Source of the DNA: Rhizomicrobium palustre
GTDB taxonomy: Bacteria > Pseudomonadota > Alphaproteobacteria > Micropepsales > Micropepsaceae
Direction: 5' to 3'
Assembly (NCBI RefSeq): GCF_011761565.1
Contig: NZ_JAASRM010000001.1
Coordinates: 2,790,139-2,854,138, forward strand
Length of the DNA: 64,000 nucleotides
Below are positions 10,920-31,200 of the stretch, piece after piece; the stretch's first letter is position 1; the number at the start of each line of letters is the position of its first letter. The position numbers and the translations under genes were made by a program. The notes beneath the pieces were generated by a model. It did no database searches, was not told the DNA's origin, and saw nothing but the letters and a program-made list of their open reading frames with translations.

Positions 10920-12260
10920 ATGAGGAATGCTATGCGCCGCACGGCCGCATTGTGCTTTTTTGCATCCATTTTGCTTTCGGGTTCCGCTTTGGCCAGCGGC
11001 TACGGGTTGCGCGATGTCAGCGCAGCCACGCTGGGGCTGTCCTATGCGGGCGACGCGGCCAACGGTTCGCGCGCTTCGACCTTGGCCTTCAATCCGGCGC
11101 TTGCCGCCGATGTGGGCGAGTTCGATGTCGCGATCAGCAATGTCGGGCTTCTGCCGAAGACCGACGGGACCTTCACGGCCACCACGGCGGCCGGAACGCC
11201 GGTCGCCGGCATCACCAATCCGAAGGATATCGTCAATACGGCGCTGATCCCGGCGATGGCGCTGCGCTATCGCCTCACGCCGACCATCGCCGTTGGTTTC
11301 ACCGCCACCGCGCCTTGGGGCATGATCACCGATTACGGTAATACCGGCGTGACGCGCTATTACGCGACCATGAGCGACGTGAAGAGCGCGAACTTCTCAC
11401 CCGTCGTCTCCTGGCAGGTTCTGCCGGAGCTTTCCATCGGCGGCGGCTTGCAGGTCCAGTACATCAAGGGCCGTCTCGCCAAGGCGATCGACTTCGGCAC
11501 GCTCGGTTATGTCAACAAGATCCCGGGCTCTGTTCCGGGCGCTCGCGATGGCTTTGTCGAGCTGCGCGCCCAGGATTGGGCGACCGGCTGGACGATTGGC
11601 GCGGAATGGAAGCCGACGCCGAATTTCTCGGTCGGTGTTTCCTATAAATCAAAGATCGAGAACACGCTGAACGGCAATGAATGGTTCACGCTGGATTCTA
11701 CCGGCATCGGCGCCACGCTGAAGGCCGTGACGGGGGCTTTTGTAAATGGCCCGGCGAGCGCGCCGTTCTCCAATCCCGATCTCGTCACTTTCGGCGCGCG
11801 CTGGAAGCTCGATCCGCAATGGACGATCTCGGTGGGCGGCGATTGGACCGGCTGGAGCGCCTTCAACACGCTGACCGCCCATTCCCACAATCCCAAGCAG
11901 CCCGACGATGTGACGGTGATGAACTGGCAGGATAGCTGGTTCGGCTCCGTCGGCGTCGAATATAAGCCCAGCCAGCTTTGGACGCTGCGTCTCGGCACCG
12001 CCTATGACCAGACCCCGACGACCTCGGGCTATCGCACACCGGGCATTCCCGATGGCGGGCGCTATTGGATCAGCGGCGGCATCGGCTACCAGCTCACCCA
12101 ACATATCGACCTCGACCTCTCGGTCGCCCATCTCATCGCCGAGAAGGGCAATATCGCCCTTAAGGCCTCCGATCCCGGCAACGCCGCGCGCGGCAGCCTG
12201 ACGGGCTCGGTGAACATGGAAGTCACCCTTATCGGCGCCGAATTCTCCTATCATCTGTAA
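10920..12260 (+). CDS. OmpP1/FadL/TodX family outer-membrane transporter
   Basis: Outer-membrane beta-barrel of 446 residues of the FadL family, which moves long-chain fatty acids or other hydrophobic compounds across the outer membrane. Residues 1-24 are a signal peptide ending SGSALA. The mature N-terminus SGYGLRDVSAATLGLSYAGDA is the family hallmark, with the plug NPA motif (STLAFNPALA). Alternating beta-strands follow to the C-terminus GAEFSYHL. A second ATG at 10932 is an alternative start. It is followed by a clear terminator and appears monocistronic. The substrate is not deducible. Confidence 0.9.
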   Translation: MRNAMRRTAALCFFASILLSGSALASGYGLRDVSAATLGLSYAGDAANGSRASTLAFNPALAADVGEFDVAISNVGLLPKTDGTFTATTAAGTPVAGITNPKDIVNTALIPAMALRYRLTPTIAVGFTATAPWGMITDYGNTGVTRYYATMSDVKSANFSPVVSWQVLPELSIGGGLQVQYIKGRLAKAIDFGTLGYVNKIPGSVPGARDGFVELRAQDWATGWTIGAEWKPTPNFSVGVSYKSKIENTLNGNEWFTLDSTGIGATLKAVTGAFVNGPASAPFSNPDLVTFGARWKLDPQWTISVGGDWTGWSAFNTLTAHSHNPKQPDDVTVMNWQDSWFGSVGVEYKPSQLWTLRLGTAYDQTPTTSGYRTPGIPDGGRYWISGGIGYQLTQHIDLDLSVAHLIAEKGNIALKASDPGNAARGSLTGSVNMEVTLIGAEFSYHL

Positions 12261-12303
12261 AGGCGGCATCTGCTCGGAAGAGCAATTACCCGCGTGAAAA
12301 TCC

Positions 12304-12336
12304 AAAGGCGGCTCCGACTGGGGCCGCCTTTTTGTT
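12304..12336 (+). terminator. rho-independent terminator after the FadL-type gene
   Basis: AAGGCGGC (12305-12312) pairs with GCCGCCTT (12323-12330) around a 10-base loop and runs into TTTTTGTTT. It closes the fadL-like transcript. Confidence 0.9.
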
Positions 12337-12347
12337 TGGCGTCATCA

Positions 12348-12929
12348 TTATCGGTCGATCGGTGCTATTCCGTGTTCTGAAAGCCAGCGTTCAAGCACCA
12401 CCGGGTCATACTGTTGCTGGATCCAGCTCACGAGGCTGGTGCCATTTGCCGCTTCCCGCGCGAATACCGGAAACGCCCGCAGCCACATCTGGTTTTGTCG
12501 CGGCATGTGCAAATAGGGAAAGCGGTCGAACTGTTTTGTGGCTTCTTCTTCCGCCATCCAGCCATACCGATGCAGTAGAAACAATGCCGACGCCAAACTC
12601 GTCCGATCCTGCCCGCCAGAGCATTTGATCAAAAAGGGCCGCGGTGCGGCATCAAATGTCTCCAATAAGCCCAGCAAGAGAACTCTGGTAGGCAGCCGTC
12701 GTGAGTTCATACTCAAATTGAAATGCTTGATTCTCAAGCGCCGGCAGCACCAGGCTTCCTTCTGCCACCAGCCCCATTCGGGATGCGCGCCACGCAGGTT
12801 AATGATGCTGCGGATGCCGTTCGATCGAAGATGGTGCTCCCAAAAGCCCATATATGGCTGTGCGGATCGCGCGGCTTCCCCGGGCACGATCCAATGGCAA
12901 TTATAAAGAATATTCAGGACCGATCGCAT
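12348..12929 (-). CDS. tyrosine/dual-specificity phosphatase-like protein
   Basis: A 193-residue protein from the ATG at 12929; the frame extends to 13019, but the extra 30 residues look like leader noise. The active-site CX5R loop is KCSGGQDRTS, with the nucleophilic Cys and Arg in place and Asp-Arg-Thr as in bacterial tyrosine phosphatases of the cyclin-phosphatase fold. The usual His before the Cys is Lys here. An N-terminal SAQPY...GIRSIINLRG block matches this family. It is transcribed away from the PIG-L/GT25/MacAB operon across a 392-bp gap. The substrate could be a protein, lipid or sugar phosphate. Confidence 0.75.
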   Translation of the reverse strand: MRSVLNILYNCHWIVPGEAARSAQPYMGFWEHHLRSNGIRSIINLRGAHPEWGWWQKEAWCCRRLRIKHFNLSMNSRRLPTRVLLLGLLETFDAAPRPFLIKCSGGQDRTSLASALFLLHRYGWMAEEEATKQFDRFPYLHMPRQNQMWLRAFPVFAREAANGTSLVSWIQQQYDPVVLERWLSEHGIAPIDR

Positions 12930-13321
12930 TCTCGACCCATGGAGACTGTTGGCACTTGGTCTTAACGCGGGTGGCCCTTGTCTAAAAACGGCTATCGTGC
13001 ACCCCAACCAAATCTCCACATAACGTCAGCCAAAGCACGGCAGAAAGGCACCGCATGGGAAAAATAGCGGGCTCCGGCGCGTCGTCCCACGGTAGGTGTT
13101 TGGCTTTGATCGACGGCCAGAGTTGTAAATTCGGCGCTGCCAGTAGCCGTCATCGCACGCGCCGGGATCGATATGGCGCCCCCACGCGGATGAAGCCTCA
13201 ACTTCACCTCCACATTTCGCCAACGCAGGCATGAGACCTAATCGGACGTCGATGGCGGCTTAGCCATTCCATGTGCCGTTTGGCTACCGGCCTGGCTGTC
13301 AGGTCAAAAAAGGTGGTGGAG
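12930..13321. other. 392-bp divergent intergenic region
   Basis: Lies between the phosphatase (minus) and the PIG-L operon (plus) and must contain both promoters. The short open frames here do not resemble proteins. I could not assign a specific operator. Confidence 0.4.
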
Positions 13322-14203
13322 ATGTCCGAATTATCTCGGTCGGGAGGTGGTTTGCCCGGTGTTGGGTTGGTTCGGAATCGCGCGCGCACCAAAGCCAATA
13401 TTAAAGAACTTCTCTTTCCCACTACCCTCGACTTGGCGCATGGGCCGCTGTTGTCGCGATTTCTCAAGACCCCGGTCGTGGTGTTGTCGGCGCATTTCGA
13501 CGACGCCTGCTTTTCGTTGGGTGGTCTACTTGAAACCATCCACCAGGGCACGTTGATCAACGTCTTCACCGCCGGTCGCTATTTGGCCAAACCACGAAAA
13601 GAATCGCCTCAAGAGGCCGATGTCTTCATCATACGGGATGCTGAAGATGAGCAATTTGCTCACGCCTGCGGTCTTTGCCGCATCGATCTGAAATGCAAAG
13701 AGCCCGCCTTGTACGGCCGTCATGTGGGCGATCTTAGCGGCGTTGCTGCAGACCTTGAGCAAATTATGGAGCCGGTGCTGCAAGCGATCGCAAAAATCGC
13801 GGCAGGGTTTCGCGAATGGGAAAAGGGGTACTTGTTTGTCCCCTTGGGGATTGGGCATCATTGTAATCATCGAGCTCTCAACGAGCTGATCCTCCAGAAC
13901 CTCGACGCCATCTCGCAAAACTACGAGGTCTTGTTTTACGAGGATCAACCTTATGCGGCTTCTCCGTTCAACCGTCTCACGGCGCTGCTGCGGGTAGCAC
14001 GCCGGCTCGATACGTCCATCACCGCCCGTTATGTGCTGCGGAACGACTGGGCGCAGAAAAAATCCCTCATCGAATTCTATCCTACGCAGCTTCGGACGCC
14101 GCCGCGGCGGTGGCGTTTCCGTCCGGCCGCTTTGTCTCCGCTTTCTCCGCATGAAGCCTTTTGGACATTTCCGCTGAACGGTGCACCGCATGTTGCCGAG
14201 TAA
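13322..14203 (+). CDS. PIG-L/LmbE family N-acetyl-sugar deacetylase
   Basis: Zn-dependent deacetylase family acting on N-acetylglucosamine-type sugars or small glycoconjugates. It has 293 residues from the ATG at 13322. The N-terminal motif is VVVLSAHFDDACFSLGG, an HxDD variant in which the usual Pro and Glu of HPDDE are replaced by Phe and Ala; the metal-binding His and the two Asp remain. The third metal ligand region is PLGIGHHCNHRALNEL, matching the family's H-x-x-H-R block with Cys-Asn where Asp is usual. No signal peptide is seen. It is the first gene of a tight operon with GT25, macA and macB, and overlaps the GT25 gene. The substrate is unknown. Confidence 0.8.
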   Translation: MSELSRSGGGLPGVGLVRNRARTKANIKELLFPTTLDLAHGPLLSRFLKTPVVVLSAHFDDACFSLGGLLETIHQGTLINVFTAGRYLAKPRKESPQEADVFIIRDAEDEQFAHACGLCRIDLKCKEPALYGRHVGDLSGVAADLEQIMEPVLQAIAKIAAGFREWEKGYLFVPLGIGHHCNHRALNELILQNLDAISQNYEVLFYEDQPYAASPFNRLTALLRVARRLDTSITARYVLRNDWAQKKSLIEFYPTQLRTPPRRWRFRPAALSPLSPHEAFWTFPLNGAPHVAE

Positions 14204-15050
14204 CTGGACCTGTTTTGTTATTAATCTCGACCGCAGCACCTATCGCCTGCGGAGCATTTCGCGACAGCTTGCGAAATCCGGGATTGCGTTCCAGCGCTTC
14301 GAAGCTGTGGATGGCTCCGTTCTCGATCCCGACTGCCACCCGGCCTTCAACCGGCAGCGATACGAGCAGCGGCACGGAAAGGAACCTGTTGCCAACGAAA
14401 TTGGCTGCTTCATGAGCCATATCGGTGTGATGGAAGCGTTCTTGAGAAGCGGCGCGGAACGCAGCCTGGTTCTCGAAGACGATGCTCTCATCGATGCGTC
14501 GCTCGCAGGTGTTCTTCACGAACTCGAAGACGCGGCGGATGCGTGGGATATGACTCTGCTCTATGGTAACCATTTTGGCGCGCCCCTTCGCCAGCGGCCA
14601 TTGGGGATGAACCATCATCTCGTCGGCTTCTTCTTTCGTCAGACTGGCGCTGTTGCCTACGCGATAAATCGCAAGGCGGCGGAGGCATATCTTGCGCATC
14701 TGTTGCCCATGACGTTGCCCATAGATGTGGATTACGACCGTGCCTGGGACTTCTCCATCCGCTTTCGCGGTGTTCTTCCTTTTCCTGTTAGAACCGGAAA
14801 GCATGCATCCGAGATCGGAAAAACAGGCCGTAAATTTGTCTGGTATCGCCGGTTCGCCACCTATCTTAATCGCATGAACCATGGAGCGCGAAGGCTCCTG
14901 CATTATGCGTTCACCGATCCGATATGGCTGACAGCACTCAAGCGGCGTCTGGCGCCACCCACCCACCGCGCAGAGGGTAATGGATCGCCCCTGCAATCCG
15001 TAACCAGCCTTTCGCCGGTATTGTCACAACTGAAAAAGGCGCGGTCATAG
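14190..15050 (+). CDS. glycosyltransferase family 25 protein
   Basis: A 286-residue GT25-type (LPS biosynthesis) sugar transferase. The family pattern is clear: CFVINLDRSTYRLRSI at the start, RFEAVDG, then GCFMSHIGVMEAFL and the metal/nucleotide-binding SLVLEDDALI. GT25 enzymes usually add galactose or glucose to LPS core or glycoproteins. The GTG at 14181 is an alternative start 9 bases upstream. It overlaps the PIG-L stop by 14 bases and is followed 31 bases later by macA. A Lys/Arg-rich C-terminus (LTALKRRLAPP) may associate with membrane. It probably glycosylates the compound modified by the neighbouring deacetylase, which is inference. Confidence 0.85.
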   Translation: MLPSNWTCFVINLDRSTYRLRSISRQLAKSGIAFQRFEAVDGSVLDPDCHPAFNRQRYEQRHGKEPVANEIGCFMSHIGVMEAFLRSGAERSLVLEDDALIDASLAGVLHELEDAADAWDMTLLYGNHFGAPLRQRPLGMNHHLVGFFFRQTGAVAYAINRKAAEAYLAHLLPMTLPIDVDYDRAWDFSIRFRGVLPFPVRTGKHASEIGKTGRKFVWYRRFATYLNRMNHGARRLLHYAFTDPIWLTALKRRLAPPTHRAEGNGSPLQSVTSLSPVLSQLKKARS

Positions 15051-15081
15051 ACTGGCAATGCATAATTTTCTTAAGGGGTAT

Positions 15082-16269
15082 ATGATGTTTGAGCGGCTGA
15101 GAGCCTTCGTTTCGGAAAAGCCCGTTCGGGCGGCCACGATAGCGATCATCGCATCATGCTTGGCGTTCGCTGTTTTTGCGCGGCCGTCAAAAAAATCTCA
15201 GGATGCAGAACTTCTGACATCATCCGTTTTCCGCGGAACCATAGAAGAGACGGTGCTCGCCAACGCTGTTCTTGAACCTGTGCGGATGGTCAATGTCGGT
15301 GCGCAGGTTACCGGTCAGATCCGTGCCTTGCACGTCGGTCTTAATCAGCGTGTCAAGGCGGGTGATCTGATCGCCGAGATTGACTCTTTGCCACAACGCA
15401 ACGCGCTGAGGATAGCCGAAGCGTCGCTCGCGAATATATCTGCTCAACAAAAGGCTCGGACCATCCAGTACGCTCAGGCGGAGAACGAGTTCCGGCGGCA
15501 GAAAAATCTACTTTCGGAGCAGGCTACATCCAGGTCTGCTTTCGATGCGGCCAAGGCATCCTACATGGCGCTGGAAGCAGAAGTGAAAGCTTTGACCGCG
15601 CAGATGACGCAGGCCAGAGTCGAAGTTGAAAATGCGCAAGTCAATCTCGGATATACAAGAATTGTCGCCCCCATTGATGGGGTCGTTATCGCTGTGGTCA
15701 CCAAGCAGGGGCAGACCCTGAATTCGACCCAATCTGTTCCGACGATTGTTGTTCTGGCGCAGCTCGACGTCATGCGCTTGAAGATTCAAATCTCAGAGGC
15801 CGATGTCACGCGCGTACAGCCGGGCCAAAAGGTCTGGTTCAATGTCATTGGCGATCAGAATACAAAGCGTATGACGACTTTGCGGCTGATCGAAACGGCC
15901 CCCACGACGATGGCGTCGGACGGAGGTGCACAAACGACCGCTCAGAGTACGGCCGCAATTTATTATAATGGCCTTGGCGAGATTCCAAATCCCGATGGCA
16001 AGCTGCGCCCTCAGATGACCGCGCAAGCGAATATTGTGCTGAGGACGGCGACGAACGTTCTCATGGTACCGTGGCCGGCTCTGAAGGAGCGCGGGGCCGA
16101 TGGGCGCTACCGCGTCGGGGCCGAAACTGCGGGTGGTAAAGTGCAAACGCGGTTCGTGCGGATTGGCGCCTCGGACAAAGTGAATGTGCAGATTCGCGAT
16201 GGCCTGTCGCTTGGCGAGAAGGTGGTGATCGGCACAGCCGCTCCCGCTCCGATGGATAGCCCGCTATGA
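15082..16269 (+). CDS. macA: MacA-like periplasmic adaptor (membrane fusion protein)
   Basis: Adaptor linking an inner-membrane ABC exporter to an outer-membrane TolC-type channel. It has 395 residues from 15082. One N-terminal membrane anchor lies at about residues 16-36. A lipoyl half-domain (VNVGAQVTGQIRALHVGLNQ), a coiled-coil hairpin at about 100-190 (Gln/Ala/Glu-rich), the second lipoyl half (LGYTRIVAPIDGVV) and a beta-barrel domain follow. AAGGGG at 15073-15078 fits starts at 15082 or 15085 better than the in-frame ATG at 15058. The last codons overlap macB by 4 bases. Confidence 0.9.
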   Translation: MMFERLRAFVSEKPVRAATIAIIASCLAFAVFARPSKKSQDAELLTSSVFRGTIEETVLANAVLEPVRMVNVGAQVTGQIRALHVGLNQRVKAGDLIAEIDSLPQRNALRIAEASLANISAQQKARTIQYAQAENEFRRQKNLLSEQATSRSAFDAAKASYMALEAEVKALTAQMTQARVEVENAQVNLGYTRIVAPIDGVVIAVVTKQGQTLNSTQSVPTIVVLAQLDVMRLKIQISEADVTRVQPGQKVWFNVIGDQNTKRMTTLRLIETAPTTMASDGGAQTTAQSTAAIYYNGLGEIPNPDGKLRPQMTAQANIVLRTATNVLMVPWPALKERGADGRYRVGAETAGGKVQTRFVRIGASDKVNVQIRDGLSLGEKVVIGTAAPAPMDSPL

Positions 16270-18209
16270 GTGCTTTGATTGAACTTTCGAATATTTCGCG
16301 CGTCTACTATACCGGAGACGAAGCCGTTGTCGCGCTCGATAGCGTGTCGCTGTCGATTAATGCTGGAGAACTGATTGCGATTGTAGGCGCCAGCGGTTCG
16401 GGAAAGTCGACCCTGATGAATATCCTGGGCTGTCTCGATCAGCCCAGCTCGGGCAGTTATCGCATCGATGGACAGGAAACCGCCGCGCTCCAGCCGGATG
16501 AATTGGCGCGCCTGCGTTGCCAGCATTTTGGTTTCATTTTTCAGCGTTATCATTTGATGGGAGACCTTTCAGCGGCAGCCAATGTCGAGATTCCCGCAAT
16601 CTATGACGGGGCCGAACCGGCAAGCCGCAGTGAAAGGGCCAAGACGCTGCTTTCTAGGCTGGGTCTGGGTGATCGCCTGCGCCATTACCCCAGCCAGCTT
16701 TCGGGAGGCCAGCAGCAGCGGGTTTCCATCGCCAGGGCACTCATGAACGGTGGCGAAATCATCCTCGCCGACGAACCGACTGGCGCATTGGATAGCAAGA
16801 GCGGCGAAATGGTGATGGGAGTTCTTAAGGAACTTCATCGCGAGGGCCATACAATCATTCTGGTCACGCACGATATTCACGTTGCCGAGCATGCCGATCG
16901 CATCATCGAAATTCGGGACGGTAAAATCATCGCGGATCGGCGGACCAGAGAAAACCCAGAGCAGCCCCCCACCCATTCACGTCGTAGCCAAGGCGCTGCG
17001 TCCTCGCCGCGCGGGCGAAGGTTCCTTGATGCGATGAAAATGGCTTTTCACGCCATGGCGGGTCATCGCATGCGAACCTTTCTGACCATGCTGGGAATTA
17101 TCATTGGCGTGGCCGCTGTCGTTCTCGTCACGGCGCTGGGCACTGGCACACAAAGAAAGGTGCTATCTCAACTCACGGAGCTGGGGGTCAGCACTATTGA
17201 GGTCTACCCCGGCAAGGATTGGGGCGATGAGCGCGCCAGTTCCATCCGCACGCTCATTCCAGAAGATGCGGATGCCCTCAAAGCTCAGCCTTACATCGAC
17301 AGCGTCTCGCCGATCCTTTCGGCCTCAGGAAACGTCCAATATGCGAACATCTCGGTTTCCGCGGAGATACTCGGTGTCGGCGAAAGCTATTTCAAGACGG
17401 GCAATCTCAAGCTCAAGGCCGGGCGCCTGTTTGACCAGGGCGATATCCAGGCAAAGGCGCAGCTTGCGGTGATCGACGACAATACAAGAAAGCGGCTGTT
17501 TCCGCATGAGCTGTCGCCTGTTGGCAAGATCATCATGTTCAAGCAGATGCCTGTGGTGATCTGCGGGGTTTTGGCACCGCGCACGACAAGTTTCGGCGGC
17601 CGCAATCTTCAGATATTTGTTCCCTTCACAACCGTTCGCAGCCGCATCACCGGCCAGGAGACAAGCCTCTATGGGCTGACCATCCGGGTTGTCCGGCAGA
17701 TTGACACCCGCTTGGCTGAAGGTGCTGTAAGCGAACTGCTGACACAGCGCCACGGCCGCAAGGATTTCTTCGTTTTCAACAGCGACCAATACCGCAAAAC
17801 CTATGAGAAGACGGCACAAACGATGTCTCTGCTGATCTCTTCGGTTGCGGCTATCGCGTTGATCATCGGCGGTATTGGCGTGATGAATATTATGCTGGTG
17901 TCAGTGACGGAGCGTACCAAGGAGATCGGATTGCGTATGGCCGTGGGGGCCCGCAGGCGGGATATCATGCTGCAATTTCAAATCGAAGCTATCACCATCT
18001 GCCTGACCGGCGCCGTTCTCGGTATCGCGCTGGCGCTGGTGGTTTGCGCGCTTCCCGGTGAAGATAGCAGCGATTTTCCGATGGTGCTCACAGGAGGGGC
18101 GATCGGCATCGCCAGTGCGTCCGCGATCACAGTGGGGCTGCTTTTCGGGTATCTGCCAGCGCGTAACGCGGCCCGGCTCGATCCAGTTGTGGCGCTGTCA
18201 CGAGAATAG
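16266..18209 (+). CDS. macB: MacB-like ABC exporter, ATPase fused to permease
   Basis: A 647-residue MacB-type ABC protein. The ATPase domain spans residues 1-225, with Walker A GASGSGKS from about residue 41, signature LSGGQQQR from about 145 and Walker B ILADEPTGALD. A linker leads to a first membrane helix at about 270-295 (HRMRTFLTMLGIIIGVAAVV). A large periplasmic domain and three C-terminal helices follow, with the family motif IGGIGVMNIMLVSVTERTKEIGLRMA. MacAB-TolC complexes export macrolides, peptides, enterotoxins or glycolipid-like compounds by mechanotransmission. Operon context with a deacetylase and glycosyltransferase suggests the cargo is a modified glycan, lipid or peptide. 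No TolC gene is in the window. Confidence 0.93.
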   Translation: MSALIELSNISRVYYTGDEAVVALDSVSLSINAGELIAIVGASGSGKSTLMNILGCLDQPSSGSYRIDGQETAALQPDELARLRCQHFGFIFQRYHLMGDLSAAANVEIPAIYDGAEPASRSERAKTLLSRLGLGDRLRHYPSQLSGGQQQRVSIARALMNGGEIILADEPTGALDSKSGEMVMGVLKELHREGHTIILVTHDIHVAEHADRIIEIRDGKIIADRRTRENPEQPPTHSRRSQGAASSPRGRRFLDAMKMAFHAMAGHRMRTFLTMLGIIIGVAAVVLVTALGTGTQRKVLSQLTELGVSTIEVYPGKDWGDERASSIRTLIPEDADALKAQPYIDSVSPILSASGNVQYANISVSAEILGVGESYFKTGNLKLKAGRLFDQGDIQAKAQLAVIDDNTRKRLFPHELSPVGKIIMFKQMPVVICGVLAPRTTSFGGRNLQIFVPFTTVRSRITGQETSLYGLTIRVVRQIDTRLAEGAVSELLTQRHGRKDFFVFNSDQYRKTYEKTAQTMSLLISSVAAIALIIGGIGVMNIMLVSVTERTKEIGLRMAVGARRRDIMLQFQIEAITICLTGAVLGIALALVVCALPGEDSSDFPMVLTGGAIGIASASAITVGLLFGYLPARNAARLDPVVALSRE

Positions 18210-18226
18210 ATTTTCAGCGGCTTGGC

Positions 18227-18748
18227 TTACATGAGCTTTTCGAACCGGAATGCTTCGTCCACGCCGGGAAAATCATCCGAGCTTGGTCCATGCGGATCAG
18301 GGCGGCGGGCGTTGAAAAATTCGACGATCTTGAAGCCGCATTTGTTGACGTAGAAATGGATGTTCCGCTTCTCGAAACAGGGCGTGTGTGTTTCCCAGAT
18401 GGCGGTCTTGGGAAACATCTGCTCGATGGCCAGCCATGCCTTATATCCAAGGCCGCCGCCATGTTCATTGACGGATATGAAGAAAAAATCGAGTGAATTG
18501 CGGTTGGTGGCGTCGTTGATCGAAACCACAGCGCCACCGACCTTTCGGCCGTCGCAAAGAATGCGCAGCACCACGGCACCGGCTGCGGTCATTGATTGAT
18601 CGAGATCTTGGTCGGATGGGATTGGGCCCGCAGGCAGCGGCCCAAACTCCTCGATGACAGCCGCCGCAAATGCGTCCTGTAGTTCTCGTTTGAACGCCGG
18701 CAAATCTTCCGGTTCGGCTATCGCAAGGGTGACCAGTTTGTCTGTCAT
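18227..18748 (-). CDS. GNAT family N-acetyltransferase
   Basis: A 173-residue acetyl-CoA-dependent acetyltransferase of the GNAT fold. The core strand and pyrophosphate-binding region are degenerate but visible (GGAVVSINDATNRNSLDFFFIS, then HGGGLGYKAWLAIEQ), followed by CFEKRNIHFYVNKCGFKIVEFF, the typical C-terminal motif B. It converges on macB with a 17-base gap, so it is not part of that operon. The substrate is unknown. Confidence 0.78.
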   Translation of the reverse strand: MTDKLVTLAIAEPEDLPAFKRELQDAFAAAVIEEFGPLPAGPIPSDQDLDQSMTAAGAVVLRILCDGRKVGGAVVSINDATNRNSLDFFFISVNEHGGGLGYKAWLAIEQMFPKTAIWETHTPCFEKRNIHFYVNKCGFKIVEFFNARRPDPHGPSSDDFPGVDEAFRFEKLM

Positions 18749-18888
18749 TCTGCGCTTCTAGCCCGTGGCCGTATCGGAAAACAGGGCGTTCCCGCCGCCA
18801 TCGGGAGAATATGCGCAGACCCTTCAGCAAACCTCCACACATGGCAAAGGACAGGTGCGGCGCGAAGTCCATCGGATTGGGTAGAGGG

Positions 18889-18912
18889 AGAATGGTGCCC
18901 AGGGGCGAAATC
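18889..18912. repeat. att-like direct repeat, distal copy of the tRNA-Phe 3' end
   Basis: The 19 bases AGAATGGTGCCCAGGGGCG (18889-18907) are identical to 20034-20052, where they form the CCA and 3' acceptor end of tRNA-Phe. One mismatch and then AATC extend the match to 24 bases. This is the arrangement left by integrase-mediated insertion at the 3' end of a tRNA gene. Confidence 0.75.
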
Positions 18913-19000
18913 CGTCTGGGGCACGCCCATGCGGAGAGCTACACTCCCGCTTCTAGGTAGAGTCGCATAGCGGCGAGTTTTGAGCTGTTTTACCGAACAA

Positions 19001-19585
19001 CTAATTCGCTCTCACCCCTTCGCTCCAATGGGGGTTACTAGGGTCTGTTGGCCAATAGACTGGCAGGGATTCAACGGTTTGCTCCGGCCCCAAAAGCCCA
19101 AAGAATTTGAGCCGATAGTTTACTCTTCCGACCATTGCCAGTTGATTAAGCGGGATGCCCAGCTCGACACGGCAATCGTAAAAAGCCTTTGTCTTTTCCG
19201 ATCCGATAGTCGTGTTGAGCGGATTACCTATCACCATCGTATCAATAGTATTGGCGAGGACATCACGATAAGCTGAGCCGACGCAATCAAAATGCGTAAG
19301 GACGGCAGAAACTAGTGGGCTCTTTTCCTCAATATAAAATGCGATATGCGTGGTTGCACTTACTTGACCAGGATCAAGATGGACCTCTGGTATTGCCTGT
19401 TGCCAGCTAAAATATAATGTCCATAGGAGCGCCACCGCGCCAGCCACAATCTTCCATAGCTTTCCTATAGGGGCTAGAAATTTAATTAGAATGGACGCTG
19501 TCGTTTCATTGCTTTGCTGAGCACTAGATTTATTCGTTCGCTGGGCGGACGATTTCTTTTTTTTGCGATTTCGCGATTTCGGCAT
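19001..19585 (-). CDS. hypothetical small membrane-anchored protein
   Basis: A 194-residue protein from the ATG at 19585; the frame extends to 19660, but the conserved-looking start is MPKSRNRKKKK. The first 27 residues are very basic and Ser/Gln-rich. A single hydrophobic helix spans about residues 43-61 (KLWKIVAGAVALLWTLYFSW), followed by a roughly 130-residue domain with few charges and two Cys. The topology would leave the basic tail in the cytoplasm and the domain outside. I recognise no family. It is the main cargo of the tRNA-Phe insert and its base composition is more AT-rich than neighbouring genes. Confidence 0.6.
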   Translation of the reverse strand: MPKSRNRKKKKSSAQRTNKSSAQQSNETTASILIKFLAPIGKLWKIVAGAVALLWTLYFSWQQAIPEVHLDPGQVSATTHIAFYIEEKSPLVSAVLTHFDCVGSAYRDVLANTIDTMVIGNPLNTTIGSEKTKAFYDCRVELGIPLNQLAMVGRVNYRLKFFGLLGPEQTVESLPVYWPTDPSNPHWSEGVRAN

Positions 19586-19728
19586 GTCATGCCCCTTCAA
19601 CGAATATGGGGTGGCCAAGCCGTGACACGGCCATAGACCAAAGACGCGGACGGCCAACAAGCAATCGGTCCACGATTAGAAATAAGGCTCTCACCAGGCC
19701 CGCAATTGAACTAATCGATCTCCAGTCT

Positions 19729-19923
19729 TCAAAGGTCATGCGCTTCGTCTCTCGACAGGCCTGTGCACTGCTTGGAATTCCTCATGCGACGACTGCGGGC
19801 GCCTCGTATGACTGACTGCACCAACTCAAAATCATCCCGCGCGAGATGTCGCATTGCCGTGCGAGCCAATTCGAAAATCTCAGAAGCTGGTTCCAGGTGC
19901 CCGTCCAACATCATCGGGATCAT
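19729..19923 (-). CDS. possible small hypothetical protein in the tRNA-Phe insert
   Basis: A 64-codon ORF with an ATG start upstream of the membrane-protein gene on the same strand. The peptide is amphipathic, with a helical-looking LARTAMRHLARDDFELVQ stretch and a basic RGARSRRMR segment. It has no recognised family and no strong ribosome binding site, and could be a remnant of a larger gene such as the lost recombination module. Treat as tentative. Confidence 0.2.
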   Translation of the reverse strand: MIPMMLDGHLEPASEIFELARTAMRHLARDDFELVQSVIRGARSRRMRNSKQCTGLSRDEAHDL

Positions 19924-20037
19924 TGCTGGTTGCTAGATCCAGGATAAATGGATTCGATGAGGCTGGTGGTGTCACGTGTGGCGAAGTGGCTACTTTGGCC
20001 ACAAAATTCAAAAAATATCGGGGTATTATGAAAAGAA

Positions 20038-20468
<431 letters not shown>

Positions 20469-22187
20469 ATGCGATTTACGCGCTGCCTGCTGGCTGCGGG
20501 CCCGGCCTTCATTGCTTGTGCTGTTTCATCAATTGCCGCCGAGGTGCCCTCTCAGGTTGCACCTGGTGCTGTCGAGCGGACGCTGCAGCAAAAGCTCCCA
20601 ACCGCCCATGAAGACCGTATCCAGATCCCCGCGCCGTCCGGTTTTGATACGCCGCAAGGCGCGGAGAAGGTGCATTTCACCCTTAGCCGAATCGATCTCA
20701 GCGGGAATACGGCGGTGCCAAGCAGCCGCTTGGCTTCCGCCTATGCCGGGTTGATCGGCAAGGATGTCTCGCTGGCCGACGTCTTCGCCGTGGCGCGCAA
20801 GATCACCGACCAGTACCGCGAGGCGGGGTATGCGCTGAGTTTCGCCCTGGTCCCCGCGCAAGAGCTCGATCCGGCGACCGGCGCGGTCCGGATCGATGTG
20901 GTGGAAGGCTATATCGCCGAGATCCGCTTCGAAGGCGCACACAATAAGCTGCCCTCGGTCGTTACCGCCATGGGAGAGCGCATCAAGCAGTCCCATCCGT
21001 TGAAGACGGCGGATTTGGAAAAATACCTCCTGCTGATGAATGACGTGCCCGGCTTTGCGGTTTCTGGTGTGTTTGATCGCATCCCCGACGCGCCCAAGGG
21101 CGCCACGCGGCTGGTGGTGAAGACGAGCCAGCAGAGCTGGACGGCGAGCGCGTCGATCGACAATCGCGGCTCGAGTGCTTTCGGTCCCTGGCAGAGTTCG
21201 ATCACCGCGGCCGCTTATGATCTGATCGGGCAGGGTGAAGACGTTTCGCTGCACGGCATTCGCGCCCTGAACGGCAAGCAGCTTTCGGCCGTGGTTGGTC
21301 AGATGTCCTTTCCGATCAGCGACAATGGCACGCGCCTGTCCTTCAACGGCATCTGGTCTGATGCTCATCCCGGTTCGCCGACGCTGTCGGCGATCAACTT
21401 CGGGTCGAGCGGTTGGACCTATGGTGCAAGCCTGAATTACCCGCTGCTGCGTTCGCGCCTTGAAAGCCTGTGGCTGCGCACCGGCGTTACGGGCAAGCTT
21501 CTGAAATCACAGTTTCTCGCCACGCCGCATTCGCGTGACCGCATTTATGAATGGAATTTGGGCGCCACCTGGAACAAGCGTGACGAAACCGGCGTGACGA
21601 CGGGAGATATCACCTTCACCCAAGGATTGCCTTTGGGTGATGTCTCCGATGTGACCGACGCTCTGCGCAGCCGCAGCACTGGCAGCGCGATCTTTTCCTC
21701 AGTGGAAGCAACTATCACCCGCCTGCAATCCGTGCTCGACACCAAATACGGCGCCCTCGATCTTTATGGCGCGGCGCAAGGCCAAGTGGCCTCGCGTGGT
21801 CTGCTGTCGTCCGAGCAATGCGGCTATGGCGGCGCAGTGTTCGGCAAAGCCTATGACTCCAACGAAATGGTCGGCGATTTTTGCGCGCTGGGCGCTTTGG
21901 AAGCCCGCGTCACTCCGGCAAGCGTATTTTTGCCCTTCCCGAAAGTCCTCACCGGCGCGCAATTCTTCGCCTCTGTGGATTTCGGCTATACGTCGAACAC
22001 CGGAAAGCTCGGCTTCGGCGATAAGACGAAAGACACCGCTTCGTCGGTTGGCGCGGGCCTGCGCTTCAGCCTGTTCCAGCGTGTGAACGGTAGCGTGGAA
22101 TACGACCTGCCGATCAGCCGCAAGGTGGCCTTGGAAGGCAACAGCGACGGGCGCGTGTTCTTCCAGCTCTCCATTTCCGCAAATTGA
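20469..22187 (+). CDS. two-partner secretion outer-membrane transporter (TpsB, ShlB/FhaC/HecB family)
   Basis: Omp85-superfamily barrel that exports the adjacent TpsA protein across the outer membrane. It has 572 residues from the ATG at 20469. The signal peptide (about 1-24) ends SSIAAEV. A POTRA-2-type domain at about 65-140 contains VHFTLSRIDLSGNTAV and ITDQYREAGYALSFALVPAQ. A second POTRA region (VVEGYIAEIRFEGA) and the barrel follow, including the family's ASIDNRGSSAFG strand. An ATG at 20436 is an alternative but would spoil the signal peptide. It is 61 bases upstream of tpsA, with a 16-bp palindrome between. Confidence 0.93.
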   Translation: MRFTRCLLAAGPAFIACAVSSIAAEVPSQVAPGAVERTLQQKLPTAHEDRIQIPAPSGFDTPQGAEKVHFTLSRIDLSGNTAVPSSRLASAYAGLIGKDVSLADVFAVARKITDQYREAGYALSFALVPAQELDPATGAVRIDVVEGYIAEIRFEGAHNKLPSVVTAMGERIKQSHPLKTADLEKYLLLMNDVPGFAVSGVFDRIPDAPKGATRLVVKTSQQSWTASASIDNRGSSAFGPWQSSITAAAYDLIGQGEDVSLHGIRALNGKQLSAVVGQMSFPISDNGTRLSFNGIWSDAHPGSPTLSAINFGSSGWTYGASLNYPLLRSRLESLWLRTGVTGKLLKSQFLATPHSRDRIYEWNLGATWNKRDETGVTTGDITFTQGLPLGDVSDVTDALRSRSTGSAIFSSVEATITRLQSVLDTKYGALDLYGAAQGQVASRGLLSSEQCGYGGAVFGKAYDSNEMVGDFCALGALEARVTPASVFLPFPKVLTGAQFFASVDFGYTSNTGKLGFGDKTKDTASSVGAGLRFSLFQRVNGSVEYDLPISRKVALEGNSDGRVFFQLSISAN

Positions 22188-22204
22188 TCCGGCACGCGCC
22201 CCTT

Positions 22205-22220
22205 GTGTGGCGCGCCACAC
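22205..22220. repeat. 16-bp perfect palindrome between tpsB and tpsA
   Basis: GTGTGGCGCGCCACAC is self-complementary over all 16 bases and lies in the 61-base gap between the transporter and its substrate gene, 28 bases before the tpsA start. It could form a hairpin in RNA that tunes the TpsA:TpsB ratio, or bind a dimeric protein. No T-run follows, so it is not a classical terminator. Confidence 0.55.
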
Positions 22221-22248
22221 TGAATCTCACCGCAAGAGGGTAAAGCCC

Positions 22249-25200
22249 ATGCAGCGCAGTTTTTTCACCAATAAGTTAAAGGTCACTGTCGCGCTTTCGG
22301 CATTGTTTGTCGGCTATCCCGCATGGGCCAACCCCACCGGGGGAACGGTCGTAGGCGGCCAGGCCGTTATCTCCACACCAAGCTCCAACCAGTTAAATGT
22401 CAATCAGTCGACCAAGGTCGTGATCATCGACTGGAAGAAGTTCGACATCGCCAAGGGCGAAACCACGACCTTCATTCAGCCCGATGCCTCTGCGCTTGCC
22501 GTCAACCGCATCGGTGGGGCCGATCCGGCCAAGATCCTTGGCAACCTCATGGCCAACGGCAAGGTTATCCTGATTGACGGCAACGGCTTCATGTTCGGGC
22601 CCAATGCCAAGGTCAATGTCGGTGCGCTTGTCGCCACCACCTCGGATGCTTCCAATGCCGACATCATGTCGGGCAAGGCCAAATTCGATAAGCCGGGCAG
22701 CGCCAACGGTCAGATCATCAACTACGGCCAGATCACCGCGAATAGCGGCATGGTCGGGCTGGTGGCACCTTCGGTCACCAATAACGGCGTGATCCGCGCC
22801 AAGCTGGGGCAGGTGGCGCTCGGCGCGTCCAATGTCTTCACATTGGACTTCACCGGCGATGGCCTGATCTCCTTCCCGGTCGATCCCAATGTGATTGCTG
22901 CCGCGATTGATGCGAACGGCCAGCCGGTGAAGGCGCTTGTGGCCAATAACGGCCACATCGAGGCCTCCAGCGTGGTGCTTTCGGCGCGGGCTGCTGCGGC
23001 GCTCGTCACCAATGTGATTTCGGTGAAGGGTGAGATCGTTGCCCAGACCATTTCGCATAAGGGCGGCAAGATCATCCTGGATTCGGGTGTCGGCGCCGTC
23101 GCGCTGGAAGGTGCCAAGCTTGATGCCTCGGGCGCGAATGGCGGCGGCAGCATCTCGGTCGCGAGCGTCAACGCATCGCGGGTCACTGCAGACGCGGCCA
23201 CGGTTTTGGATGCCTCCGCGACCAGCCAAGGCGACGGCGGCAGCATTGTGCTGAATTCGCTGAACACCAAATTCTACGGCACCGCCAGCGCAAAGGGCGG
23301 CAGCATCTCGGGTAATGGCGGCAAGATCGATACCTCGGGCCATGTCCTCGATGTGGCTGGGGCGAAAATCTCCACCGTCGCGCCGCATGGCAAGACCGGC
23401 GAATGGCTGATCGATCCGTACAACATCATCATTTCGAACGATGCCAGCACCGGTTCGGGCTATACCGCCACTGCTAACGATACGGTCATCAACGCCGACC
23501 AGATTTTGGACGCGCTGAAGAACAACAGCGTCTCTATCACCACGGGGGCGTCGAATGCCCCAGGTTCGCAAGCGGGCGATATCACGATTTCGACGGGGCT
23601 GAGCTGGAATAGCAGCAACACGCTGACCCTCGCGGCTGCCAACAGCATCAATGTCAACGCGCCGATCAGCTTGGCCAGCGGCGGCCTCAGCCTGACGGGC
23701 AAACATCTGAACTTTGCCGATAATGTAACCGTCTCGGGCGCGGGCTCCGTCGTCCTAACGGGGAGTGACTACACTTTTCTGGGAGGGCATTCGCTTAGCT
23801 TCACGGGTGGCAAGAACTCGGGAGCAACGCTGGCCATCAACGGTACGTCTTTCACGCTGCTTTATGGCTTCGACGACATTCAGGCGATAAGCTCCCCTGG
23901 CAAGTTGAGCGGTGCATACGCTCTCGCCAATTCGCTGGACGCGTCTTCCCTCACCACTTGGACGTCGATTGGTGACAGCTATAACGATTTGCCATTCGCC
24001 GGCATTTTCGAGGGCTTGGGACACACCGTCTCCAACCTTAGCTATACAGCAACGAAAAACACGACCGGCTTCTTTGGCTACACCTCGGGTGCGACCATTC
24101 GGGATTTCGGCCTGATTGATGGTGCCATTACCAGCGGGAACATCAACGCGGTGGGGCCGCTCGTGGGCACCGCCGAAAGCAGCCAGTTGCAGAACGTTTT
24201 TGCGAGCACCAGTGTCACCGGGACCGGCCAGTATGTCGGTGGTCTCGTCGGCAGCATCAGCGGTGATTCCAACATCATCAACGCGGCCGCATTCGGCGAT
24301 ATCACCGGTGGGCAAGATGTTGGTGGGTTGGTTGGGACGATATATGGGGGCCAGATTCTGAATGCCTATGCCACGGGCAGCGTCAAAGGCGGGCAGAATG
24401 CTGGCGGGCTTATTGGACACGCGGTTTCCAACAGCAACGCCACTTATATCGAAAATACCTATGCAAGCGGTGCCGTCTCCGGTGACGGGGTGTCTGGCGG
24501 CCTCATCGGGCGCGTAGACAATTTCTGTTCCACCTGCATCGATCAGACGACAATTTCCAATTCATATTGGAATACGGATACAGCCAACGTGACCGAGAGC
24601 ATCGGCTCCGGAACCTATACAGGTAATGTATTTGGTGTTCCCACGAGCGTTCTGCAATCCGGCCCTGCCGGTCTCAATGCTTTGCCGTGGAACATCAAAT
24701 CCGGGGCCAATCCCTATCTCAGCTTCCTGGTGTTACCGCAGACCACCATCTCCGGCACGGTCTATTCCGACCACGGTAAGACCACTCTTTCTGGCGTGAA
24801 GGTCTATGAGGTCCTGCTGGGCGGTTCCACCATCGTGGCGAATGCCACCAGCGGCAATGATGGCGCCTATTCAGTTGCGGCGCCGCAATCGAACGGCACT
24901 GCATTGTTGTTCCTGGATGGCGGCAGCGTCTTCGCCAATACGGTGGCGGAATACACGGGTTCCAGCCTTTCCGGCGTGAACCTCTATGGCGGCTATCTCA
25001 CCTTCTTCAATACTTCCTCTGTAACGGTCACCTCTGCCCTTGACTCGCTGAAGAGCTTCATGAAGCCGGATGGCTTCTCCACCGGCGACTTCCTGTTTTC
25101 GCCATGGGGCGATGTTATCGTACCGACGGCTGGCCTTGATATCACCGCGAGTAGAAATCTTTCCGCCGATAGGGCGTTCAGCTTCGTCGGCACGAATGGA

Positions 25201-28200
25201 CTTTACCTCACCGCAGGCGACGCGCTGTCGATTGACGCGCCGCTGACGGTTGAGAATGGCGCGCTCAATTTAACCGCCTATACGATGTCGTCGATGGCGA
25301 ACCTCACGGCGTCAGGTGCCGCGGCTGTTTCACTTAATGTGGCCGTTCCCGCGAGCACGGTGTTTGGCGGTGGAACATCGCTCAGCTTCACCGGCGGCAA
25401 GAGCTCCGGTGCAACGCTGACCATTAACAATTCGCGCTACACGCTGCTCTATGACTTCGACGACATTCAGGCGATAAACTCCCCCAGTAAGTTGGACGGC
25501 GCGTACGCCCTCGCCAACTCGCTGGATGCATCCTCACTCACAAGCTGGAAGCCCATCGGCAACGCCGCGAATTCCTTCAGTGGCGTTTTCGAGGGCTTGG
25601 GTCATACCGTTTCCAACCTCAGCTATACGGTTGCGGGCTCGATGTCCGGCTTCTTCGGGACCGTAAGAAACGGCATCATTCGTGATTTCGGTTTGGTCGG
25701 CGGAACGATTACGGTTGCGAATGGCAACTCCGATATCGGCCCGTTGGCAGGCGAAGTCGCAAATTCTTTGATATTGAATGTCTACTCCTCCACGGACGTC
25801 AAAGGAAACGGCTGGTATGTGGGGGGGCTGATCGGCTTCCTCGACGCGGGTTCACGTCTTTACGGCGGCGCTGCGCATGGCAATGTCACCGGCGAGCAAA
25901 ACGTCGGCGGTTTTGCCGGCGGGATTTACGAGGCTGCGGTAGGCAATGCCTATGCCACTGGCGATGTCTCTGCCTCGTATAGGGCAGGCGGTTTTGCCGG
26001 CGAGGTGAGTAGATATCAAGGCAGCGTCGCCGTCTCTAACGTTTATGCGAGCGGTGCTGTCTCCGCGACAGACTATAAAGGCGGACTGTTCGCAAATGTC
26101 GCCGAAATGTGCGCGCCTGCCTGTACAAATGTCGGGATCTATTTCTCGAACGCCTATTGGACCACGGATACCACGGGCGTCACCAATGGCATGACAGGAA
26201 AAGGCACGTATAGCGGCACGCTAACCGGCGTCACCACGGCACAATTGCGGGCCGCCGGTCTCGACGGTATGCAACCACCCGGCTGGGTTTATAAGGACGG
26301 GTTTAATCCTTATCTGCGTTTTGAGACTGCGCCCGCCAAGACCATCTCCGGCACGGTCTATTCCGACCACGGTAAGACCACACTCGCAAACGCGAATGTT
26401 TACGAACTGACGCTGGGGGATTCCTCGGTGGTGGCCAACGCCACCAGCGGCACCAATGGTACGTATTCGCTGGTCGCGCCAGATTCAAACGGCTCGGTGC
26501 TGCTGTTCTTGGATGGTGGAAGCGTTTTTGCCAACACCGTGGCGGAATACAAGGGCGCCAGCCTGTCTGGCGTGAACCTCTATGGCGGCTATCTCACCTT
26601 CTACAATACCTCTTCGGTCACGGTGGCCGCCGCGCTCAACACGCTGGCCGGTGCCGTGACGCCGAATGGCGTATCCGCACGTGATTTCCTCTTCAGTTCT
26701 TCCGGAAATAACGTGGCGCCCATGGCGGGACTCGACATCACCGCCACTGGCGACTTTTCGCTGGACGCCACGCTGAACTTCGCAGGTAGCAATGGCCTTT
26801 ACTTGAATGTGGCCGGGAATTTCTCCAGCCAAGAGTTGAGCGCCCTGAGTATCGTCGATGGCGCACTGAACATTTCCGCCAAAAATATCGCTATTGGTTC
26901 CAATGTGACGGTGACCGGCGGCGGTATGGTCCAACTCAACACGGCACAGTCGGGGGATTATCAATTCCTCAATGGGCATTCGTTGCAGTTTACCGGCGGC
27001 AAGGATGCAGGGGCGTCGCTTTCGATCAATGGTACTGCGTACACGCTTCTATATTCCTTCGACGATCTCCAGGCGATCAATGCCACCTCGAATTCGCGTG
27101 GTGGAACTTACGCTTTGGCGAAGTCCCTTGATGGGCATTCCTTCAACGGCTGGACCCCAATCGGCGGGAGTAATGGCGGATTCAACGGAGTCTTCACTGG
27201 CCTGGGCAATACGGTTTCTAACCTTAGCTATGGCGTGACGTCAGTAAATGCGGGCTTCTTCGGCTATGTCGGCAATGGCGTGATCCGCGATTTCGGTGTT
27301 CTAGGTGGAACGATTTCTGGCTCGGCAGATTTTGTTGGCGGTGTGGTCGGCTACGCATGGAAGGCGACGCTTAAGAACGTCTACTCCACAGCCTCAATAA
27401 CAGCAGATGGATCGTATCATGGCGGGCTGATCGGCTTTGCCGACACCTCCACCATAACCAACGCTTCCGCACGTGGTTCAGTCTCTGGGGCATACGTAAT
27501 CGGTGGCCTTATTGGCACCCTTAATGAATCCACACTCATCAATGCCTATGCAACCGGGCCTGTCACAGCAAGCAAGGACACTATCGGTGGATTGATTGGC
27601 AATGTTGGGGCGTATTTCGGTTCAACCACGATCTCGAACGTTTATGCCTCTGGCCCCGTTACCGCCCCTTCATCGGCGCAGAATGTCGGGGGACTTCTCG
27701 GGATTGGCTATGGCTTCGGGACAAAGATCCTGACCAATGCCTATTGGAATAGCGAAACGTCCGGCACGCAGTTGGGGCTCGGCTCAACCGCCTCGGTCTA
27801 CACTGGCGCCGCAGCAGGCCTGACGACGGCTCAATTGCGCCAAGGTCCCCAGGGCTTTGATCCAAGCGTTTGGGTCTTTAGCAACACCGCCAATCCGCGC
27901 TTGATCATTGAAAACCCGATACCGACGATTTCCGGCACGGTTTATACCTCGCGTGGTGGCAACGCGCTCTCCGGCGCCGATGTTTACGAAATTCTGATTG
28001 GCAACTCGTCGGTCGCCGGGACGGCCAAGAGCGGCACGGATGGCTCCTATTCGCTTTTTGCGCCTTCGTCCAATGGAGCGGTCCTGCTGTTCCTTGACGG
28101 GGGCAATGTTTTTGCGAATGCGGTGGTGGACTATAAGGGCCAAAGCTTATCGGCCATTGATCTCTTCGGTGGGTATCTGAGTTTCTACAATACCTCGGCG

Positions 28201-31200
28201 GTCACGGTTTCGGCCGCGCTCAACACGCTGTCGAGCTTTGTGCGGCCAGACAACTTTGCCGCTGGCGATTTCCTTTTCAATATTTCCGGGTCCAGCGTAA
28301 TGCCCACGGCGTCGCTGGATATCACCGCGGCGGGGCCGCTGACCATCGATCAAGCGCTGACCTTCACCGGCACAAATGCGGGGTATTTCACTGCCGGTAA
28401 TGGCGACATCACCGTCGCCAACGCCATCAATCTCGATAGCGGTCGCCTTATCCTGAACGCGACCGGTGCAATCGCGGTTAACGCCAAGGTCTCGGCCTCC
28501 GGTGCAGCGACAGTTTCGATGGTTGCCGGCACAAAGGCCGGAACTCTGCCGTGGCAAACGCTTACAGAGATCAGCTATGGGGTCGGCGGCGGCCTTGATT
28601 TTGGCAATACGGACAACGGGGCCAAGCTGTTCGTCAATCGGCAGGCCTACAAGCTCGTCTACTCGTTGGATCAACTGCAAGCGATCAACAGTGATCTTTC
28701 GGGCAGCTATGCCTTGGCGACGTCGCTGGACGGTTCCGCGCGTAAGAGCTGGACGCCGATCGGCAATGCCGCGAATAATTTTGCGGGCATCTTCGATGGC
28801 CTCGGCAATACTCTTTCTAATCTCAATTGGGATATGACGGGGGCTGATGAAGCTGGCCTGTTTGGTGTTGCTTCTGGCGTGTTGCGGAATATCGGGCTTG
28901 TCGGCGGCACGATGACCGGCAAGGGCGTGAACAATTTTGGTCCTCTCGCCGGACATTTGTCGGGCGTCGCCTATAACAGCTATTCGACTGTCAATGTTGT
29001 CGGTGATGGCTGTGATCTTTGCGGCGGTCTGATTGGTTATGTCGAATTGGGCAGCTTGGCTCAGAACGTCTTCGCCACGGGCAATGTCATCCTTAAGAAC
29101 GGCAGTGAGTCTTCGGCTGCGGGTGGCCTGGCCGGCTCGGTCGAAGGTGGGATCAGCAACGGCGAAGCTTTCGGCGCCGTTATTGGCGGCAGTCATGCTG
29201 GCAGCATTGCGGGCTATCTGCCTACCTCCGGCGTTCTCAACAATGTCGTTGGTCTTGGCTATGTGAAGGCGGATGGCGTTTCCGGCGGGCTGGCGGGCTC
29301 GGCCTACGGAACGATCACCAACGGCTATTTCGATAGCGACACAACGGGCATTTCCTACAATCGCGGGGTCGGCGAGGGGCAGACCACGACGGGCTTCATT
29401 GGCCTCGGCACATCATACCTGCAATCGAATATGCCCGACGGGCTCACTTCCCCTGATTGGGGCTTCAATCTGGGCGCGGCTTATCCCTATCTCGCCAGTT
29501 TCTTCCCGAACGGGGTACAGACGGTTAGCGGCAAGGTCTACGCCAATTCGGATCAAGACGCGGCGCCGGGCCTGCGGGTGGGCGCTCTCGCCAATGGCAA
29601 TAAGCTGGGCGAATCCGGCACGGGCTCAAATGGCTATTACTATATCTTCATGCCTGCCGGAACGCTCCAGAACGACAGCAACGTTCTTGCCTACCTCACG
29701 GGTGGGACGGTGCAAGCGAACACCTACCTCGTGAAAGGCGACGGCGCTTTGACGGACGCCAATCTCTATGTGGGTGATCTGCGCCTGATCTCGGGTGCGG
29801 CCAATCTTTCCACGATGTTTGATGGCTTGGCGTCGGCGCTGGGGAATATGAGCGGAGCCGATTACCTGTTCGCGGTGTCGAACGGAAAGGTGGCTCTTGG
29901 GTCTTCGACCAATCTCAATGTCTTGGAAACCGGCTTCAGCCTGAACATCGATCAGGCCATCACCACCACGGGCAATGTCGTTCTGAGCGCGGACGACGCA
30001 AGCGTGACGCAAAGTGAGGCGATCAAGGCAAATGCCTTGGTGCTGCGTGGGGTTAATACCAGCTTCACCTTGACCAACAGCGCCAATAACGTTTCCATTT
30101 TGGCGGATCGGCCCGTTTATGGTTCGTTGAGCTTCGTCAATAGCGGTGATCTGACCATCGGCACGGTGGCTGATGATAGCGGCCTGAGCGGGTTCCGCCT
30201 GATTTCGGTGAAGGCGGGCGGAAACCTCACGGTGGATGCGTCGGTGCAGGCCGCAGATGTGGTGTCGCTGCTCTCGGGCGGTGATCTCACAATCACTGAG
30301 AGTGGCTCTGTGTACAGCCGGAACAGCATCGTGTTATCGGCCGGCAAGGCTTTTGTGAATAACGGCGGCGCGACTGCGGTGACGTCGGAAGATGGCCGCT
30401 GGCTGATTTATTCGGCCGATCCCTCCAAAAACAGCTTTGGCGGTCTCGATAGCGGTAATACCGCGATTTGGAATGCCACTTACGATACCATGGCACCGGA
30501 AGGCATCGAGGCGAGCGGCAACCGTTATCTCTTCGTCAAGCAGCCGACGCTGACCATCACCACAACCGACCTTTCCAAGACCTATGGATCTAGTATCGGT
30601 TCGGCCTTGAGCGATGCCTATAAGATCGCAGGTTATGATGGGGGCCTTACGGGTGTGTATCTCGCCGATACGGCAGCCTCGGTGTTCAGCGGCACCCCCA
30701 TCATCAGCTCGTTGGGTGCGGGTGCTGGCGCGAAGGCTGGCAGCTACACTGTCAATGCCGCGCAAGGCAGCATCGTTCTTCTCAATGGCTATGCGCTGTC
30801 GGCGCAAAACAATGGCGTGCTAACCGTTGATCCCAAGGTGCTGACGGCCGCCTTGACCGGCGTGGTGACCAAAATCTACGACGGCACTACCGCAGCCTCG
30901 CTGATGAATGGCAATTACGTGCTTTCCGGCATCGTCGGCAGGGACGCGGTTTCGGTGGCCAACACGTCGGGCAGCTTTGCAGACAAGAATGCGGGCAGCG
31001 GCAAGACCATCACGGTTTCCGGGCTGACGCTTTCGGGCGCCGATGCGGGGAATTATGTGTTGAGCGTCACCTCCGTCAGCGGCGATATCGGTGCTATCAC
31101 GCCAGCAACGCTCAACGCCGCGCTCACGGGATCGGTGACGAAAGTCTACGATGCCACCACGCTGGCCGCGCTGGCCAATGGCAATTACGTCCTCACCGGC

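Follow-up and report, generated by a model that had tools for sequence, protein, structure and literature searches.

Islands integrated into tRNA genes are catalogued in Islander, which rejects candidates that lack an integrase or fall below 2 kb (PMC4383910); islands of this type combine an intact tRNA gene with a displaced piece of its 3' end, which keeps the orientation of the gene and lies 3' of it, and foreign DNA separates the two. Partial tRNA copies left by integration are also known as a source of annotation errors (PMC9897764), in an account whose passages considered here hold no discussion of single-gene segments. Small islands without a recombinase of their own are represented by the microcin H47 island of E. 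coli, a 13-kb element between extensive imperfect flanking direct repeats for which excision and integration were demonstrated experimentally (PMC3191183, PMC5426353). Here we describe a segment beside tRNA-Phe of Rhizomicrobium palustre, in a stretch of 64,000 nucleotides (hereafter, the window). The locus has the layout of Islander-type islands, but with no integrase and a length of just 1.15 kb it falls outside that catalogue on both counts; like the microcin H47 island, it is small, bounded by direct repeats and devoid of its own recombinase, but it is far shorter than 13 kb and is known from sequence alone. Its partial tRNA copy resembles the integration scars discussed as annotation hazards (PMC9897764). 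In view of its missing integrase and a length below 2 kb, we call it a micro-island or remnant and not a member of the standard island class; the feature is of an ordinary kind and of unusually small size.

An initial sequence-only reading had reported a copy of the tRNA-Phe end 1145 bases away on the side where elements integrate, and this observation was reproduced. The sequence AGAATGGTGCCCAGGGGCG is an exact 19-nt match at both 18889 and 20034, extending to 24 nt with one mismatch at a spacing of 1145 bp (Table 1). The distal copy, made up of the last 20 nt of tRNA-Phe and 4 nt past the CCA, lies on the 3' side of the gene in the same orientation, which is where integrated elements put displaced tRNA ends; it overlaps no conserved protein domain, falling between a GNAT gene (18227-18748) and the next open reading frame (ORF). 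A chance match, to which the short repeat length alone might point, is scarcely credible. A search of the complete genome (4.26 Mb) that allowed up to three mismatches located the repeat core at these two sites only. In a comparison of 46 of its tRNA genes, with flanks of at most about 10 kb, the same-strand self-match near the gene reached 19 nt for tRNA-Phe versus 13 nt or less for the others, the sole longer match belonging to a genuine tandem tRNA-Ala pair; and none of 500 simulated Markov sequences of 10 kb contained a match to the 24-mer better than 19/24, versus 23/24 in the real sequence. A repeat of a length expected by chance, which the earlier reading had named as grounds for abandoning its proposal, is thus not what we found. 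The distal tRNA fragment also pairs with sequence just inside the segment in a strong hairpin at 18893-18925 (-19.7 kcal/mol for 18885-18935); considered as a terminator, this hairpin is not an obvious one, as a T-run is absent.

Table 1 Features of the tRNA-Phe locus, in window coordinates.
Feature	Position	Strand	Remarks
Distal copy of tRNA-Phe 3' end (probable displaced attachment site)	18889..18912	minus	24 nt, one mismatch
Micro-island body	18913..20033	no strand	GC 0.501
Orphan ORF, 194 aa	19001..19585	minus	N-terminus rich in lysine; single hydrophobic stretch, probably membrane; homologue searches negative
Stretch adjoining tRNA, integrase position in relatives	19586..20033	no strand	No recognisable gene or integrase remnant
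tRNA-proximal repeat copy	20034..20057	minus	20 nt of tRNA 3' end and 4 nt beyond CCA
tRNA-Phe(GAA), intact	20038-20113	minus	ARAGORN; sole tRNA-Phe among tRNA genes examined
tRNA-Phe leader, conserved	20114..20205	minus	Promoter-like elements by eye; marks ancestral tRNA unit orientation

The DNA between the repeats is foreign-looking by composition. It is AT-rich, with a GC content of 0.501, whereas a 695-kb sample of the genome has 0.596 and 0.5% of its equal-sized intervals were as low as the segment. No integrase lies between the repeats, as the sequence-only reading had stated: tblastn with tRNA-Phe-associated integrases gave no convincing match in the segment, a PF00589 search of the genome listed no match within it, and the approximately 450 bp between the single substantial ORF and tRNA-Phe contain no recognisable gene. 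A wider search for an integrase remnant, over 12260-20040, gave a top tblastn match (E 0.008) that was spurious, falling inside a PIG-L-family gene, and repeats of the arm type within the segment were limited to short matches compatible with chance.

The one substantial ORF (19585-19001) agrees with the unrecognised membrane-protein gene of the earlier description, and its features suggest that it is probably an intact accessory gene with a membrane-anchored product. It starts with ATG preceded by GAAGGGG, its length was reached in none of 2000 shuffles of the segment, and its own frame scores best for codon usage, yet poorly for this genome (GC3 of 0.46, versus 0.62-0.78 for neighbouring genes); a lysine-rich N-terminus and one hydrophobic segment can be read from the translation. 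Searches for homologues returned none that was convincing in the libraries or genome sets covered, namely Pfam, NCBIfam, PHROGs, PADLOC, PDB, phages, plasmids, viral contigs and genome_contigs, together with 69 genomes of the genus, 96 of the order and 385 of the class. Candidates that were set aside comprise a sub-threshold Pfam match to CrgA (E 0.0066), one sub-threshold PHROGs match and two short class-level matches (E near 0.008), the inspected one of which overlaps a guanylate-kinase-like gene and is not a homologue. The AlphaFold model of the protein (mean pLDDT 47.5) was too poor for a fold search.

Relatives place this locus at a site in repeated use. All 68 other genomes of the genus matched the region, nearly always through the tRNA sequence alone, and the segment and its cargo gene were absent from every one of them, so that in these genomes the segment is not the stable core DNA that would have counted against an island. 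Up to 20 kb around tRNA-Phe was extracted from most relatives, the 3' side being readable for at least 2 kb in 41 and for at least 14.5 kb in 30; the gene is followed by other DNA downstream, and none has the left flank of the window. In six relatives (G036, G005, G025, G026, G035 and G067), a P4-type tyrosine integrase directly adjoins tRNA-Phe (integrase domain checked in one of the six), and tRNA-Phe is thus an integration hotspot in the genus. One of these is a 14.2-kb integrase-bearing element in G036 (L035, G036:C45), which ends in a second tRNA-Phe fragment and also encodes proteins resembling AlpA, a MobA relaxase and a TIR-domain protein (assigned by eye on the translations). The window uses the same tRNA and the same side as these elements, but has neither their integrase beside the tRNA nor the relaxase-like gene of G036. 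Opposite-strand matches in the relatives reached 13 nt at most.

Where the fragments end is, to our mind, the strongest argument that the window holds an attachment-site pair. The displaced fragments span tRNA nt 1-21 in G036, nt 1-21 in G048 (described below) and nt 1-20 in the window, each ending in the T-arm, and such agreement within one nucleotide among unrelated segments is what a shared integrase crossover site would lead one to expect. Since the repeat is unique and not attributable to chance, tRNA-Phe is a hotspot in the genus and the G036 fragment end matches within one nucleotide, the repeat of the window very probably represents a genuine attachment-site pair.

The surrounding region has been rearranged. 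Most relatives have conserved genes (for Maf, RNase G or a FadL-type porin) 5' of tRNA-Phe, and of these RNase G and FadL are read in the direction of the tRNA. The Maf/RNase G/FadL block of the window is instead found on the 3' side, with 7.8 kb from tRNA-Phe to FadL, and the tRNA and its leader point the other way (inverted region, 12260-20205). tRNA-Phe is also flipped in two relatives, G021 (L065) and G065 (L086). The left-flank genes (GNAT, MacB/HlyD-type transporter, GT25, PIG-L and PTP) were seen at the same position in none of the relatives, and given the rearranged neighbourhood this flank is not clean ancestral sequence. On the other side of the tRNA, the window carries a two-partner secretion pair (20436-32232) of a ShlB/FhaC-type transporter and a 3341-aa exoprotein with a TPS domain, GLUG motifs and YDG/MBG domains.

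Such a setting invites the explanation that the tRNA end was copied without an integrase, by local duplication or by a rearrangement linked to the flip, and that the DNA between the copies is ordinary accessory sequence like the left flank. We consider this quite unlikely, because staggered-break inversions yield inverted and not direct duplications, and the fragment stops at the T-arm position also seen in the G036 element with its integrase, and has the orientation and side that integration predicts. No inverted tRNA fragment able to have driven the flip was found, and since inverting DNA would not account for a direct repeat, we treat the inversion as a separate event.

Our preferred reading, to which we assign a probability of about 0.6, is that the segment is a stranded micro-island, left where a mobile element integrated at tRNA-Phe and then lost its integrase and most of its length. 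A tyrosine integrase would have recombined the element site-specifically into the 3' end of the gene, crossing over in the T-arm/acceptor region; the attachment site of the element would have restored the tRNA, with the original 3' end displaced to 18889. Subsequent loss of the integrase and most of the element would have left a 1.15-kb micro-island with one cargo gene, the product of which is probably membrane-anchored. Past integration, loss by internal deletion, present immobility and any role of the cargo are what we infer from this arrangement, internal deletion being the simplest route by which the integrase may have gone. The deletion is not directly seen, because the segment holds no detectable integrase remnant, and other points also count against this reading: the cargo ORF gives the impression of an intact gene, not a decayed one, and the neighbourhood is rearranged, with the tRNA flipped.

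The missing integrase remnant and the intact cargo ORF speak for a non-autonomous mini-island, in which the tRNA-Phe integrases of other elements act in trans on a cargo gene flanked by two attachment sites and so move it, as has precedent in integrase-less islands that excise (PMC3191183, PMC5426353). Other repeat-bounded segments without an integrase at tRNA-Phe also favour it. In G048 (L048:15482-17357), a 39-nt repeat (90% identical) lies 1837 bp from tRNA-Phe, and an inner tRNA fragment splits the 1.84-kb stretch into two tandem small segments, one with a HigBA-like pair (PF05973 and PF13744) and the other with a small membrane protein without a Pfam match. In G015 (L044, G015:C14), an exact 18-nt copy of the tRNA end lies 3.08 kb from tRNA-Phe, and a gene resembling formate dehydrogenase by eye occupies the interval; this case is weaker, because the copy is shorter and sits at the end of an ORF.

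Several observations nevertheless make trans mobilisation unlikely. The genome encodes only four proteins with a Phage_integrase domain, of which two are Xer-like, one is a P4-type integrase beside tRNA-Ser(GCT) and one has no tRNA in the region read; none is beside tRNA-Phe. No cognate integrase is therefore present now, and mobilisation in trans lacks present support, but a visiting integrase could have acted on the segment in the past. Recognition of a mobile unit of this kind would look for several related copies, and of this segment no second copy or relative was found anywhere searched, so that nothing shows that the unit moves. The segments of the window, G048 and G015 have no sequence in common beyond the tRNA end, and short segments are over-represented among the detectable ones, as a reading length of only about 17 kb favours the detection of short elements. 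The island interpretation of the sequence-only reading thus stands for its integration-derived repeats, foreign composition, missing integrase and orphan cargo; its suggestion of a small satellite or an element mobilised in trans is not borne out, with neither a cognate integrase in the genome nor a relative of the segment or gene to support it. By extension, tRNA-Phe in this genus might collect one- or two-gene micro-cassettes without integrases, inserted and exchanged in trans by the integrases of passing islands and carrying, for example, an orphan membrane protein, a toxin-antitoxin pair or perhaps a formate dehydrogenase; such a cassette system would escape catalogues with thresholds like those of Islander, and we regard the scenario as distinctly improbable.

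If the stranded micro-island reading is correct, the locus is a scar of horizontal transfer that keeps a single intact cargo gene, and island finders with a required integrase and a 2-kb minimum miss such units. Were the recurrent integrase-less segments at tRNA-Phe mobilised in trans, the locus would carry more weight, since a tRNA site would then let single genes travel as minimal cassettes; failing that, the segment is an ordinary relic. A still shorter arrangement was seen in a contig of a metagenome-assembled genome (MAG) labelled Xanthomonadales (L091:1146-1308), where the 3' end of tRNA-Phe recurs as an exact 26-nt copy only 162 bp from the tRNA.
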